A stretch of 40,990 bases of DNA from Blastococcus sp. (lineage in GTDB: Bacteria > Actinomycetota > Actinomycetes > Mycobacteriales > Geodermatophilaceae). The notes under the pieces were generated by a model. It was not told where the DNA came from and ran no database searches. It worked only from the letters and a program-made list of their open reading frames with translations. Shown here piece by piece: positions 7,487 to 30,977 of the stretch. The first letter of the stretch is position 1; the number at the start of each line of letters is the position of its first letter. The stretch is taken from NCBI GenBank assembly GCA_025465355.1, contig JAODNN010000109.1:1-40990 (forward strand), in the 5' to 3' direction. The translations under genes and the position numbers were made by a program.

Positions 7487-8595
7487 ACACGCACGACACC
7501 CGCCCCGGCTCGACCGGCGGCGCGGACACCCCGGGCCCGTTGCACGGCGGCCCGGACGAGGACTACACGCCCGAGCAGCTCGCGGCGATGAGCCTCGACG
7601 AACTCGACCGGCTCGGGGCGCGCTACGACGGCGTCGAGATCATGCACGTCGAGCCCGGCCCGGAGCCCGGTTCGCCCCTCGAGAAGCGCGCGGTGCGGCA
7701 GATCGGCACGGTCTTCACACTCGCCGGTCTCTGCGCCTTCGCCTCCGTGGTGATCTACGCCGGCTCCGGATGGTTCCTGCCCACCTGGCAGTGGAGCGTC
7801 AGCGAGAGCGGCTGGAGTGCGATCTTCACGCCACTCGTGGGCGCGCTCTTCGGTGCGGCCATGATCCTGGTCGGAGTCGGCCTCGTGCTCTACACCAAGA
7901 AGCTGCTCCCCCACGAGACCGCGGTGCAGGACAAGCACGACGCGTCGGCCTTCGACCGCGCCACCGCCGGCGCGACTCTCGTCCGCACGGCCCACAACAG
8001 CGGGCTTGCCCGCCGGAAGCTGATCACCCGCTCGCTGGCCTTCATGGGCGGCGGCCTCGGGCTGATGCTGATCATGCCGCTCGGCGGCCTGATCAAGAAC
8101 CCCAACACGGGGGATCCGCTGGGCACCACGCCCTGGAAGCAGGGCGTGCGCCTCACCCGTCTCGACGGCAGCCCGATCCGCCCGGGCGACCAGGAGCCAG
8201 GCTCCCTGGAGACGGTGTTCCCTGCCGTTCCCGGCGGCAACCGCGCGGCCAACGCGGCGACGATGCTCATCCGGCTCCGCCCAGAGCAGGTCGCCGCGAA
8301 CCGGCCCCGTCCGGGCCAGGGGAACCTCGGCTACGGCGACTACGTCGCGTACTCCAAGATCTGCACGCACGCCGGCTGCCCGGTGTCTCTGTACGAGCAG
8401 GAGACCAGCCGGATCCTCTGCCCTTGCCACCAGTCGCAGTTCGACGTCACGCAGGGCGCCAAGCCGGTGTTCGGTCCGGCCAGCCGCCCCCTGCCACAGC
8501 TCCCCATCACCGTTGACGCTTCGGGCTACTTCGTCGCCCGAAGCGATTACCTCGAGGCCGTAGGCCCGACCTACTGGAACCGGAGGCGCATCTGA
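7483..8595 (+). CDS. qcrA: Rieske iron-sulfur subunit of the bcc complex
   Basis: A 370-aa Rieske protein of the actinobacterial type, with a long cytoplasmic N-terminus and three membrane helices (about 75-95, 108-130, and one near 185-205) before the Rieske domain. The 2Fe-2S ligands are in CTHAGC (Cys294, His296, with Cys299) and CPCH (Cys313, Cys315, His316); Cys299 and Cys315 would form the family's disulfide. It accepts electrons from menaquinol at QcrB. GTG 7483 overlaps qcrC by 4 nt, and the stop overlaps the qcrB start by 1 nt (TGATG). Confidence 0.96.
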
Positions 8596-18559: not shown

Positions 18560-19012
18560 ATGACATCAGCCCAGCCCGCGCGCCCGACCGGCGGCGCCAC
18601 ACGTGCCGATACGGCGCCACCCGATCCGGCCCAGGCGTCGACCGCGGAACTGATCAGCCAGCTGACGGACCAGCTCTCCCGGCTGGTCCGGGACGAGGTC
18701 AGGCTCGCGCAGGCAGAGGCCACGCAGAAGGCCAAGCGCCTCGGCATCGGCGCCGGTCTGTTCGGGGGTGCCGGGATCGTCGCGCTGCTGGGGGTAGGCG
18801 CGCTGGTCACCGCCGCGATCCTCGGGTTGGCCAACGTTCTGCCCGGCTGGCTCGCGGCGATCATCGTCGCCGTCGTCCTCTTCCTGATCGCCGGGGTGCT
18901 CGCGCTGCTCGGCCGGAAGGACGTCGAGCAGGCGACTCCGCCGCTGCCCACCGAGACGATCGCCAGCGTCCAGGCCGACATCGCCACGGTGAAGGAGGGG
19001 ATCTCCCGATGA
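18560..19012 (+). CDS. Holin-like (DUF1469 / phage holin superfamily III) membrane protein
   Basis: A 150-aa protein: a hydrophilic start; helix STAELISQLTDQLSRLVRDEVRLAQAE typical of DUF1469 (its conserved LxxxE pattern); two membrane helices (LFGGAGIVALLGVGALVTAAI and WLAAIIVAVVLFLIAGVLALL); and a C-terminal segment ending TIASVQADIATVKEGI. Despite the family name these chromosomal proteins are not phage lysis proteins. ATG 18560 has GGAGG upstream; its stop overlaps the next ATG (ATGA). First gene of a three-gene cell-envelope module. Confidence 0.85.
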   Translation: MTSAQPARPTGGATRADTAPPDPAQASTAELISQLTDQLSRLVRDEVRLAQAEATQKAKRLGIGAGLFGGAGIVALLGVGALVTAAILGLANVLPGWLAAIIVAVVLFLIAGVLALLGRKDVEQATPPLPTETIASVQADIATVKEGISR

Positions 19013-28197: not shown

Positions 28198-28217
28198 GGC
28201 TCAGGAGGCCGCCTCAG
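28194..28217. terminator. Hairpin containing both stop codons of convergent genes
   Basis: A perfect 7-bp stem CTGAGGC/GCCTCAG (28194-28200 with 28211-28217). The epimerase TGA (28195-28197) and the kinase stop (28214-28216, minus) lie in opposite arms. Probably a minimal two-way terminator. Confidence 0.5.
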
Positions 28218-29917
28218 GGCAGCCGCTCCACCTGGTCGATCCGCCAGCCCGCCGGGGTCAACGCCAGCACCATTCGCACAGCTGCCTCGGGGCGTCCGGC
28301 GCCGGCACGTAGCGCCGGCCCGTCCGGACGGCCCGCCGGGACGACGTCGTAGCCGGGCCAACGGTCGACCAGCCGGAGCTCCACCCGCTGGCCCGAGGTG
28401 CGCACATCGCTCACGCGGACGACCGAGGGCGTGAAACCGCGTAGCCGCTCCGTGGCGGCAGCCAGGGCCCGGATCTGCTCCTCGTCGGCCGCCCGCTGGG
28501 GACTGTCGGCGGTGTACACGCGGTCCAGTGCTGTGACCGCCGAGGTGCCGGAGGCGGTTCCGAACGCTCGGGCCCGGCGCGCGTACAACTGCGCCACCAC
28601 GGCCCGCCAACCGTCAGCCGCGGTCGGCGGCTGCCGCTGGTCGGCGGGACCCGTCTCTCCGTCCGACGCACCCGCCGGACGACCACCAGCCTGCGCAACG
28701 GGTGGCTGCGCCGTACGCGGAGCGGCGGCTGACGGCGCACGGGGCGCGGCGGACGTCGCGGCCGCGACGGTCGCGCCGGCACCCGGCGCGGCCAGTGCCT
28801 CATGGGTGTCCGGGTCGCCGGTCCACCGGGCGCCGATCCAGCCCACCGCGATCACGCACGCGAGGATCAGGCCGAGCGGGACGGCAGCGCGCGCGCCCGG
28901 GCGGAGGCGGCGGACCAGGCGCGGCCCGAGAGCAGGCCCCCAACCGGACCGCCGCGGCGGGGCCACGACGACCGGGGCCGGGTGCCGATGTCGTCCCGGG
29001 ACCTGGTGGGTCAGCTCCGTGCGGGGCCCACGGCCGGTCCGCCCCAGCTCCGCGTCCGGGATCCCCGCCACCGGCAGCCGCACCGGCTCCGGCCGGCAGG
29101 CGTGTCGCAGATCGAGCGCGAAGGCCGCCGCCGAGCCGCGGTCGTGCGGATCGGCGGCCAGCCCGCGGGCCACGACGGCGATGAGCTCCGCAGGTGCATC
29201 CGGGGCGAGTTCCGCCAGATCCGGCAGGTGGCCCGACGCCGCGACCTGGAGGGTGTCGTCCGGCGTCGCCGCGTTCCAGGGCGCGACCCCGGTAAGGGCG
29301 TGGAAGGCAGCGGCCGCGACCCCGAACACGTCCGACGCCGGCCCCGGCGCACCCCCGTGAGCCACTGTGGGATCGACGTAGGCCGGGGTGACCTCGCCGG
29401 CCGAGGTCTCGCCGAGCACCCGGGCGACGCCGAGATCGGTGAGAACCGGGCGGCCCTCCGCGGTGAACACGATGTTGCCCGGCGACAGGTCACCGTGGAC
29501 GACGCCGTGCTCGTGGGCGTGCGCCAGGGCGGCGGCAACCGGCGCGATCGCGGTGACCACCTCGCCCGGACGCAACCGGCCGCGGCGGGCGAGCAGGGCG
29601 GCGAGGCTTCCCCCCGCCAGGAGCTCCAGGACCAGCGCGACACGCGGCGGCCCTCCTCGGCGCGGTTGGTGCACCACCTCGAGCACGCGCACGAGGTGCG
29701 GATGGTCCAGCTCGCCGAGCAGGGCCGCCTCGCGCGCCTGTCGCTCCGGGTCACCGTCGACCAGCACCTTGACCGCCACTGCCGGCCCGCCACGGCGCGG
29801 AACGGCCCGCCACACCTCACCGGAGCCTCCCCGCCCCAGCAACGCCTCGACGGTGTAGCCGGGGACGACCGGCGGCTCCGCGGCACGGGCCGTTCCGGGC
29901 TGATCGGGAGCTGACAT
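28214..29917 (-). CDS. Serine/threonine protein kinase with an extracytoplasmic domain
   Basis: A 567-aa PknB-type receptor kinase. Kinase domain (about 20-285): glycine loop LGRGGSGEVW, Lys50 (VAVKVL), catalytic loop HGDLSPGN (141-148) and DLG (161-163). The usual HRDLKPxN has lost both Arg and Lys, so this is a non-RD kinase, though the Asp and Asn remain. A Pro-rich linker, one membrane helix (about 345-365, PLGLILACVIAVGWIG), a low-complexity Ala/Pro stalk, then a C-terminal domain of about 140 aa (from WRAVVAQLYARRARAF to GWRIDQVERL) of NTF2-like look outside the cell (inference). ATG 29917 fits a leaderless promoter. Signal and targets unknown. Confidence 0.88.
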   Translation of the reverse strand: MSAPDQPGTARAAEPPVVPGYTVEALLGRGGSGEVWRAVPRRGGPAVAVKVLVDGDPERQAREAALLGELDHPHLVRVLEVVHQPRRGGPPRVALVLELLAGGSLAALLARRGRLRPGEVVTAIAPVAAALAHAHEHGVVHGDLSPGNIVFTAEGRPVLTDLGVARVLGETSAGEVTPAYVDPTVAHGGAPGPASDVFGVAAAAFHALTGVAPWNAATPDDTLQVAASGHLPDLAELAPDAPAELIAVVARGLAADPHDRGSAAAFALDLRHACRPEPVRLPVAGIPDAELGRTGRGPRTELTHQVPGRHRHPAPVVVAPPRRSGWGPALGPRLVRRLRPGARAAVPLGLILACVIAVGWIGARWTGDPDTHEALAAPGAGATVAAATSAAPRAPSAAAPRTAQPPVAQAGGRPAGASDGETGPADQRQPPTAADGWRAVVAQLYARRARAFGTASGTSAVTALDRVYTADSPQRAADEEQIRALAAATERLRGFTPSVVRVSDVRTSGQRVELRLVDRWPGYDVVPAGRPDGPALRAGAGRPEAAVRMVLALTPAGWRIDQVERLP

Positions 29918-29924
29918 GACGGCG

Positions 29925-29930: not shown

Positions 29931-30092
29931 GGGCGACGGGCGCATGGCCCGCTGGTGTTGTCCACAGGCAGCTGCCCAGTCCACTGATCGGGCCTGTTCC
30001 GACCGCAACTGCGCGGGAACCGGGCACCCCTCCCGGATGTGACGCAGAGCTACAACAGCATTCATGGATCGCGGAAGAGTGACCGGGTGGGG

Positions 30093-30214
30093 GCCGTTGT
30101 ACTCGGTGCCGTCCCTGGATGCGCCGGCGTTCACAGCGCTACACAGACGACGCCTCGCGGCGTGGCAGTCGAGCATGGGCGATGCGGGAGGTTCGATTCC
30201 CCCCGACGGCACCA
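30093..30214 (+). ncRNA. 122-nt tRNA-like RNA with an encoded CCA end
   Basis: The 3' end is that of a tRNA: T-arm 30187-30203 with loop TTCGATT inside the consensus GTTCRANYC and four of five stem pairs, then CGACGGC and ACCA. The last seven bases before ACCA pair fully (one G-U) with GCCGTTG at 30093-30099, giving a 7-bp acceptor stem; the next base is T, as at tRNA position 8. The 87 nt between do not form a normal tRNA. They can form a D-arm-like hairpin with a 6-bp stem and GG in the loop (30104-30126), a 3-bp stem with loop TTCACAG (30127-30139, a CAC anticodon if real), and hairpins at 30150-30163 and 30173-30185. It could be a degenerate tRNA, an unusual tRNA, or a different tRNA-like RNA. 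Too short for tmRNA. Confidence 0.45.
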
Positions 30215-30230
30215 CAGAGGTCACGCCACC

Positions 30231-30242: not shown

Positions 30243-30977
30243 ATGCCCGCGTCCGCCCCCACGATCCTGGCCACCAGCATGGGCTTCGCCCCGCGCAATC
30301 GTGGCCCGTACGACTGGGCTCCGGGCCCGGTGTTCGACCTCGCCTTCGAGCTCGCGGGAGCACCCGAGCGGCCCCGCCTCTGCTATCTCGGCACCGCCAC
30401 CGGTGACGACCCCGTGCGCGTGGCCGGTGTCTACGGCGCGTTCGCGGGGAGCACGGTCCAGGTCAGCCACCTCAGCCTCTTCCCGATGCCGACCGTGCCC
30501 GACGTCCGTGCCCACCTGCTGGCGCAGGACGTCATCTGGGTCGGTGGCGGGAGCGTGGCCAATCTGCTCGCCGTCTGGCGGGTGCACGGTCTGGACGAGG
30601 TGCTCGCGGAGTGCTGGCGGGCGGGCGTCGTCCTCGGCGGGGTGTCGGCCGGGTCGCTGTGCTGGCACGTCGGTGGCACGACCGACTCCTTCGGTCCCGA
30701 CCTCCGGCCGGTCACCAACGGGCTGGGCCTGATCCCCACGTCCAACGGGGTCCACTACGACTCCGAGGAGCAGCGCCGGCCGCTCTACCACCAGCTGGTC
30801 GCCGAAGGCGTCCTCCCGCCCGGGCATGCCACCGACGACGGCGTCGGCCTCGTGTACCGCGGCACCGATCTGGTCGAGGCAGTCGCCGACCGGCCGGGCA
30901 AGGCGGCCTACCGGGTGGACCGCGGCCCCGACGGCACTGCGGTCGAGATCCGTGTGGAGCCACGCCGGCTGTCCTGA
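30243..30977 (+). CDS. pepE: Peptidase E-like protein (family S51)
   Basis: A 244-aa serine peptidase of the S51 family (dipeptidase E and cyanophycinase-like), with the class I glutamine amidotransferase-like fold. The nucleophile Ser135 is in the elbow GGVSAGSLCW; IWVGGGSVANLLAVWR binds substrate; NGVHYDSEEQRRPLY holds the conserved His-Tyr region. S51 dipeptidases cut Asp-X dipeptides; the exact substrate here is unknown. ATG 30243 fits its promoter. lipB follows 20 nt after, but has its own -10 box. Confidence 0.88.
   Translation: MPASAPTILATSMGFAPRNRGPYDWAPGPVFDLAFELAGAPERPRLCYLGTATGDDPVRVAGVYGAFAGSTVQVSHLSLFPMPTVPDVRAHLLAQDVIWVGGGSVANLLAVWRVHGLDEVLAECWRAGVVLGGVSAGSLCWHVGGTTDSFGPDLRPVTNGLGLIPTSNGVHYDSEEQRRPLYHQLVAEGVLPPGHATDDGVGLVYRGTDLVEAVADRPGKAAYRVDRGPDGTAVEIRVEPRRLS

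Follow-up and report, generated by a model that had tools for sequence, protein, structure and literature searches.

A candidate tRNA-mimic small RNA gene of actinobacteria behind an ECF-type promoter

What kind of RNA carries the 3′ end of a tRNA but not its body? The question is raised by an intergenic region in a 40,990-nt stretch of Blastococcus sp. DNA, the whole of which is called here the window. The region lies between a serine/threonine kinase gene on the minus strand (28214–29920) and a peptidase S51 gene on the plus strand (30243–30977), with a lipoyl ligase gene next. The original prediction placed here a tRNA-like RNA of 122 nt and offered three options: a decayed tRNA with an insertion, an exotic tRNA, or a new tRNA-like RNA. 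The finding itself is real, as a conserved family demonstrates, but its boundaries had to be redrawn. The gene is mapped to positions 30105–30214 of the plus strand by its aligned extent in 36 distinct sequences and by covariation, with a start near 30105 deduced from the promoter. The RNA is thus ~108 nt long, within a family range of 95–121 nt in the alignment of all 36 sequences (A9), and ends 28 nt before the peptidase gene. Our preferred explanation, to which we give a rough probability of 0.6 as a whole, is a stand-alone non-coding RNA gene that would encode a stress-controlled tRNA mimic of a new family, acting in trans on a factor that recognises tRNA; induction, maturation and target are what we infer from sequence features.

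Besides the window RNA, 35 further distinct homologs were found, in actinobacteria and in one MAG labelled Acidobacteria. A DNA search of 61 relatives matched 10 genomes at E ≤ 0.01, namely the window's own genome, five with strong homologs (identity 75–94%) and four with short weak matches (E 0.0016–0.0086) that were left unused. The five strong matches span the RNA and in some cases also the preceding -10 region. A covariance model built from five sequences (R1) listed 27 of 397 genomes of the order; two of these (G285 and G354) were dropped by eye as an ordinary tRNA and a tmRNA-like 3′ end, which leaves 24 intact homologs, the window's own included, and one split copy in the MAG G195. The same model detected the RNA in 14 of the 17 genomes of Nakamurella. 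When named genomes were scanned with a pattern, 17 loci emerged: five in Nakamurella, two in Modestobacter, one each in Blastococcus and Goekera, and the others in seven further actinobacterial MAGs and the Acidobacteria-labelled MAG. The latter is probably a mis-binned actinobacterium, because it has a neighbour family, presumably adenylosuccinate-lyase-like, in common with a Nanopelagicales MAG.

A second model (R2) added six diverged homologs, which belong to other families in the class. It listed 17 matches, nine of them true by eye or by coordinates (the own RNA and two found by the pattern scan included) and eight weak; of the weak ones, five hold ordinary tRNAs, one (L159) lacks a T-arm, and two (L156 and L157) were set aside without inspection. 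Four of the six diverged homologs belong to one family, where four of five genomes carry the RNA. Overall, 43 matches reduced to 31 distinct sequences, 30 of which form alignment A8 (L060 dropped), and A9 is A8 with the six added. The RNA is patchy in the window's own family (5 of 112 genomes, and 2 of the 96 of good quality), and therefore is not essential there; among 396 genomes sampled from the phylum, the window's own was the only one in which it was detected, with about nine candidates per genome scored in such large samples, so that absence is not proof. There was never more than one match per genome in the order, Nakamurella, class and family searches, apart from two partial matches in G195, and no second copy was found in the window's own genome (next match E 0.05). 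Conservation of the family and of its main arms is well supported.

In the window, the acceptor stem is formed by GCCGU (30108–30112) and ACGGC (30206–30210). Its 5′ strand is followed by CCC (30113–30115), which is proposed to form helix H with GGG at 30177–30179, and by a conserved D-loop-like segment UGGAUGCG (30116–30123; seven of eight columns invariant in the 36 sequences). Hairpin P2 (30126–30140) has a stem of variable length and a loop often of the GNRA type; it is absent in L150. Arm P3 (30146–30170) consists of GAC/GUC (30146–30148/30168–30170) and ACGCC/GGCGU (30150–30154/30159–30163), separated by a G / GGCA internal loop. A junction conserved in A9, GAGCAUGGGCGAUG (30171–30184), leads to the T-arm (30185–30205), whose stem pairs 30185–30191 with 30199–30205. 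The acceptor 3′ strand is followed by discriminator A30211 and C74 at 30212, the first base of the encoded CCA (30212–30214). The place of an anticodon arm is taken by a conserved core of UGGAUGCG, CAGACG, GGCAGUC and AGCAYGGGCGAUG together with P2 and P3. No conserved reading frame was found in the RNA, and P2 and P3 show single-base length changes in A9.

The six-helix structure pairs 93.1% of 959 cells of A9, an alignment of related rows made by MAFFT and not structure-fitted, whereas slid versions of this structure, which had been derived from earlier rows, pair 35–50%. Both sides changed at 14 pairs in 65 cells, a level reached by none of 500 shuffles. The acceptor pairs GCCG/CGGC are invariant in all 36 sequences, hence covariation is impossible there; the fifth acceptor pair is U-A in 14 sequences, G.A in 17, A.G in 2, and A-U, G-C and U-G in one each. 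Double changes occur at three of the five P2 pairs (81.1% of cells paired), at all of the four inner P3 pairs counted (100% paired) and in the T-stem at columns 98–114, 99–113, 100–112 and 101–111; for the GAC/GUC part of P3 a double change, from A-U to G-C, is seen only in L150. In a structure-free scan, restricted to column pairs in which standard pairs make up at least 85% and two Watson-Crick types occur, the top ranks went to the four pairs of P3 and to one of P2 (mutual information from 0.96 down to 0.50). The next column pair, 9–90 of helix H, scored 0.31, a value reached by 5 of 20 shuffled alignments, whose maxima were 0.13 to 0.55 and which ignore relatedness. P3, P2 and the T-stem are supported by these top ranks and double changes, whereas helix H, with a C-G to U-A double change in two of the 36 sequences from one clade, is a weak candidate. 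RNAalifold on 30 sequences keeps four acceptor pairs, the 7-bp T-stem and inner P3, and proposes CUG/CAG (11–13/41–43) and GUC/GGC (79–81/90–92) instead of helix H, GAC/GUC and P2, so that the pairing of the junction is tentative. The excess of G-U over A-C cells (42 vs 10) fits an RNA of this strand. The window sequence by itself folds no more stably than shuffles (z 0.58), its minimum-energy fold differs from the comparative one (-50.1 vs -34.0 kcal/mol), and the comparative pairs have a mean probability of 0.34 in the single-sequence fold. It is conservation alone (36 sequences, 14 double-changed pairs, none of 500 shuffles) that lifts the comparative structure above chance.

The compensatory changes bear out the arms and not the acceptor originally proposed. 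A 7-bp acceptor with its 5′ strand at 30093–30099 does pair in the window, but at the same offset no more than 4 of 36 homologs form all seven pairs (the mean being 4.0); with the best of five offsets the mean is 5.1 and seven pairs form in five homologs, compared with a random best-of-five of 4.4 (rows L052, L055 and L151 of this count are unreliable, since their 3′ strand was taken three bases off). That strand lies outside the RNA and overlaps the GTT of the promoter; the 5′ strand within the RNA is GCCGU. Two of the four small hairpins described between the acceptor strands correspond to the covarying P2 and P3, while a CAC-like anticodon loop among them and a T at position 8 find no support. 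The competing pairings CTCG/CGAG and TGCC/GGCA, as placed here, have 5′ partners that vary across homologs. The T-arm with one stem mismatch (A30189.C30201) and the encoded CCA were recognised correctly.

The 3′ part of the RNA follows tRNA closely. The T-loop UUCGAUU (30192–30198) is nearly constant, L151 having UCCGAUU with C for U55. By complementarity, a 5-bp acceptor abuts a 7-bp T-stem, giving the 12-bp acceptor/T stack of a tRNA. The split is 5/7, or 6/6 if column 9 pairs with column 116, as is possible in all rows, in contrast to 7/5 in tRNA. Columns 97 and 115 form G-C in 34 rows and G-U in one, with one gap, so that all 35 rows with letters are paired; columns 10 and 115, where a 7/5 tRNA would form its seventh acceptor pair, are unpaired throughout. 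A73 is present in 35 of the 36 sequences (L152 has G73), C74 in all 36 and the full CCA in 17. The same rule is seen in the tRNA genes of Nakamurella G039, a single contig, where C74 is found in 45 of 45 and CCA in 16 of 45 distinct genes. That the RNA follows the 3′-end rule of the host tRNAs argues for tRNA-type trimming and CCA completion, and the RNA is likely to mature in this way. Sequence-specific recognition of the acceptor end is suggested by its four outer pairs, which never vary, and by an A73 that hardly does; the invariant core hints at another site of binding. As a separate observation, the rule of a constant C74 and an occasional CCA in G039 could be a guide to further RNAs of this lineage that are processed like tRNAs.

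Upstream of the RNA we found a potential ECF-type promoter, with the -35 element GGAA (GGAAGA) at 30073–30076 and the -10 element GTT at 30096–30098 of the plus strand. The strict pattern GGAA-N18-20-GTT-N8-10-GCCG is present at 25 of the 36 loci versus 18 of 65128 background positions, and the spacer is 19 in 22 of these 25. When the spacer and the -10 were allowed to vary more widely, an earlier set of 31 loci, the split copy included, gave 27 matches versus 98 at 18621 background positions. The strict promoter is missing in 11 of the 36, and L052, L055, L056 and L057 lack even a looser match. The consensus for sigma-H of C. glutamicum is GGAAt-N18-19-GTT, with GGAAN also recognised (PMC10012870). 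The sigma-R/sigma-H promoter type GGAAT-N18-19-GTT is represented here by GGAA-N18-20-GTT; the base after GGAA at the 25 strict loci is G in 12 (the window among them), T in 10, C in 2 and A in 1. A sigma-R/sigma-H-like stress-type promoter thus appears to drive the RNA, from which we infer its expression. Hairpins with z ≤ -2 (mononucleotide shuffles) occur within 60 nt downstream at 14 of 36 loci versus 3 upstream.

A regulon of this kind brings tmRNA to mind, as tmRNA is named among the ribosome-associated members of the Streptomyces SigR regulon (PMC4921905). The RNA could be a reduced tmRNA relative, a tRNA-like domain without the message that would serve in ribosome rescue or compete with tmRNA. 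It shares with tmRNA the acceptor, the T-arm and a GG-containing D-like loop lacking a canonical D-stem, and the Rfam tmRNA model (RF00023) aligns 30105–30217 end to end with 18.1 bits (E 2.3e-5); a permissive Rfam scan of the window gave two unrelated weak matches besides. This score is far from the gathering score of 47 bits, and the Rfam check proposed in the original prediction returned nothing at that level. Ordinary tRNAs of the same genomes outscore the RNA with the tmRNA model, up to 41.5 bits for a tRNA-Ala, so that the hit shows no more than a likeness to tRNA. At the third acceptor pair (columns 6–119), 36 of 36 sequences have C-G rather than the G.U of alanine identity (G3.U70 in tmRNA), and the single-base length changes exclude a conserved tag frame. 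The RNA has neither message domain nor tag, measures 95–121 nt versus about 375, and has its own promoter and locus, while a full tmRNA scores above the cut-off in five of six carriers, the sixth (G014) being a 76% complete genome. We consider descent from tmRNA unlikely.

Similarly, a Y-RNA-like tether is conceivable, in which the tRNA-like module would gate or recruit an exonuclease such as PNPase with a partner other than Ro60. YrlA, which binds Rsr/Ro60 and PNPase, is similar in its size of 90–150 nt, its modular build with a tRNA-mimicking module that contains a T-loop, and its stress setting (PMC8394870). Ro60/TROVE (PF05731) was found in only one of 61 genomes, which has no homolog of the RNA, and in none of the six carriers among them. 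The RNA has no basal Ro-binding stem, nor any long closing stem beyond the acceptor, and ends in a tRNA-type acceptor 3′ end instead. Rfam includes a YrlA model, yet no Y-RNA match was seen up to E 10 for the window segment or up to E 1 for five homolog loci. A Y-RNA tether is thus improbable as well.

The chromosomal sites of the RNA differ even within Nakamurella and Blastococcus, as might be expected of a small mobile element, or one for recombination, that uses its folded form as the recombination site and is conserved as a DNA fold. In four other Blastococcus genomes (G014, G004, G008 and G005; loci L165, L169, L167 and L172) only a short spacer, with no copy of the RNA in it, separates a kinase-like sequence from pepE, as we read the alignment; the alignment makes the spacer of the window (about 29970–30220) roughly 225 bp longer than that of G014. 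The comparison of the kinase-pepE region suggested earlier thus finds no RNA there in these relatives; G014 carries it at another site, with a downstream flank resembling that of a Modestobacter MAG. In G195 the gene is circularly permuted as a 210-bp block, with the 3′ part upstream of the promoter and 5′ part (L060 at about 1501–1797, L144 at 7980–8189); the two parts fit together exactly, with GAGCA running into TGGACG as in the sister locus L056. In this single MAG the permutation could be an assembly fault or the insertion of a circular form. A G195 flank frame considered as a DGPF/YCII-type gene was rejected, as Pfam gave nothing at E ≤ 1 for the pieces or the joined frame. Against an element stand the finding that no genome other than the one with the split copy gave a second match, the lack of a widely recurring family among the unannotated neighbours, and the ECF promoter, the G-U excess and the tRNA-like 3′ end, which fit an RNA. 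The window RNA matched none of 50,697 phage and 72,556 plasmid records, and the family pattern had no exact match in viral contigs; on these grounds a phage or plasmid origin was rejected. Altogether, we regard a mobile DNA element as quite improbable.

A decayed tRNA with an insertion, or an exotic decoding tRNA, was suggested by the T-arm, the CCA and the acceptor pairing in the window. The RNA does have in common with ordinary tRNA the T-arm, the 12-bp stack, A73, C74 and an optional CCA; it differs in its length, its ECF-type promoter, its conserved non-tRNA core and the lack of an anticodon arm, since the loops of P2 and P3 differ between homologs in both length and sequence, and none is constant and anticodon-like. 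ARAGORN, one of the checks proposed at the outset, found no tRNA or tmRNA gene in the window, and the tRNA model RF00005 listed 47 places in G039 at E ≤ 1, none at the RNA locus; that is, the tRNA models recognise no cloverleaf with an anticodon arm in either case. Moreover, G039 has tRNAs for all 20 amino acids, hence no need for another decoder. Conservation as a unit across families, with covariation, contradicts decay, and the missing anticodon arm speaks against an exotic tRNA; both are very improbable, and the third option, a new tRNA-like RNA, is the one that the covarying family supports. Allo-tRNAs also have a 12-bp acceptor/T helix with an unusual split, but there it is 8/4 or 9/3, with anticodons and a link to SerRS identity (PMC7609411), in contrast to 5/7 or 6/6 and no anticodon here.

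A cis-regulatory leader, for which the same-strand peptidase gene just downstream in the window would be the target, is hardly credible, as downstream genes vary, the next called one is convergent at 21 of 29 loci, hairpins follow at 14 of 36, and no conserved downstream gene of the same orientation was found. The gene orientations come from a simple gene caller, and their count excludes L077 (no downstream gene), the split L144, and L147–L152. Among three called genes on each side of 31 loci, no family occurs at more than four. The varying neighbours and the convergent next gene suggest that the RNA probably acts in trans. The widest neighbour family, which we take to be a pyridine-nucleotide-disulphide-oxidoreductase-like protein, lies directly upstream in L073, L137 and L142 (two genera) and is the third gene upstream in the window; chance, a broad paralogous family or ancestral synteny could produce this recurrence.

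We propose that the stress-controlled tRNA mimic works as follows. Thiol-oxidative, heat or antibiotic stress would free an ECF sigma factor, and the RNA would be transcribed from about 30105. Its trailer could then be trimmed and the CCA completed through the tRNA 3′ pathway. The folded RNA would present a tRNA elbow and acceptor end, of 12 bp split 5/7 or 6/6 and not 7/5, and would most likely bind in trans, as a mimic, a tRNA-recognising factor and adjust that factor under stress. Candidates are the ribosome or EF-Tu, an aminoacyl-tRNA synthetase and an RNA-processing enzyme. RNase P, for instance, measures the T-stem/acceptor stack and has non-tRNA substrates that include tmRNA and 4.5S RNA (PMC4919913), so several factors could bind the RNA.

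To our knowledge, few bacterial RNAs imitate tRNA without decoding, among them tmRNA and Y RNA. The RNA described here fits neither of these, nor tRNA or allo-tRNA; the tRNA mimicry by which it would work is itself known in principle. Rfam has no fitting family for the window segment or for five homolog loci. Literature word searches, made for the RNA itself and for relatives resembling tRNA, brought up no description of it among the entries listed, and nothing tRNA-like appears in the available portion of a survey of 104 RNAs (PMC2864571). Tentatively, at somewhat less than even odds, the family might join tmRNA and Y RNA as a third class of bacterial tRNA mimic: ECF-sigma-controlled, CCA-tailed, acting on the translation machinery in oxidative or proteotoxic stress, and with a strand-swapped acceptor/T helix in which two of the 12 pairs would be supplied by the strand before the T-arm. 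The RNA also suggests that the 12-bp acceptor/T geometry can be kept through another strand arrangement. A further tRNA mimic behind a promoter of the thiol/heat-stress type provides a defined gene for deletion and a defined RNA for pull-down, with which one can test how translation or RNA turnover is adjusted through tRNA mimicry when cells are under stress; several named actinomycete strains are among the carriers.

A minor observation concerns the tRNA genes of G039. A tRNA-Pro (GGG) gene (L108) lies at G039:3221480, and ~36 kb away a 3′ fragment of it, from the anticodon arm onward, is repeated at L124 (G039:3257900–3258038), a layout that an integrative element in tRNA-Pro would be expected to leave at its far end.
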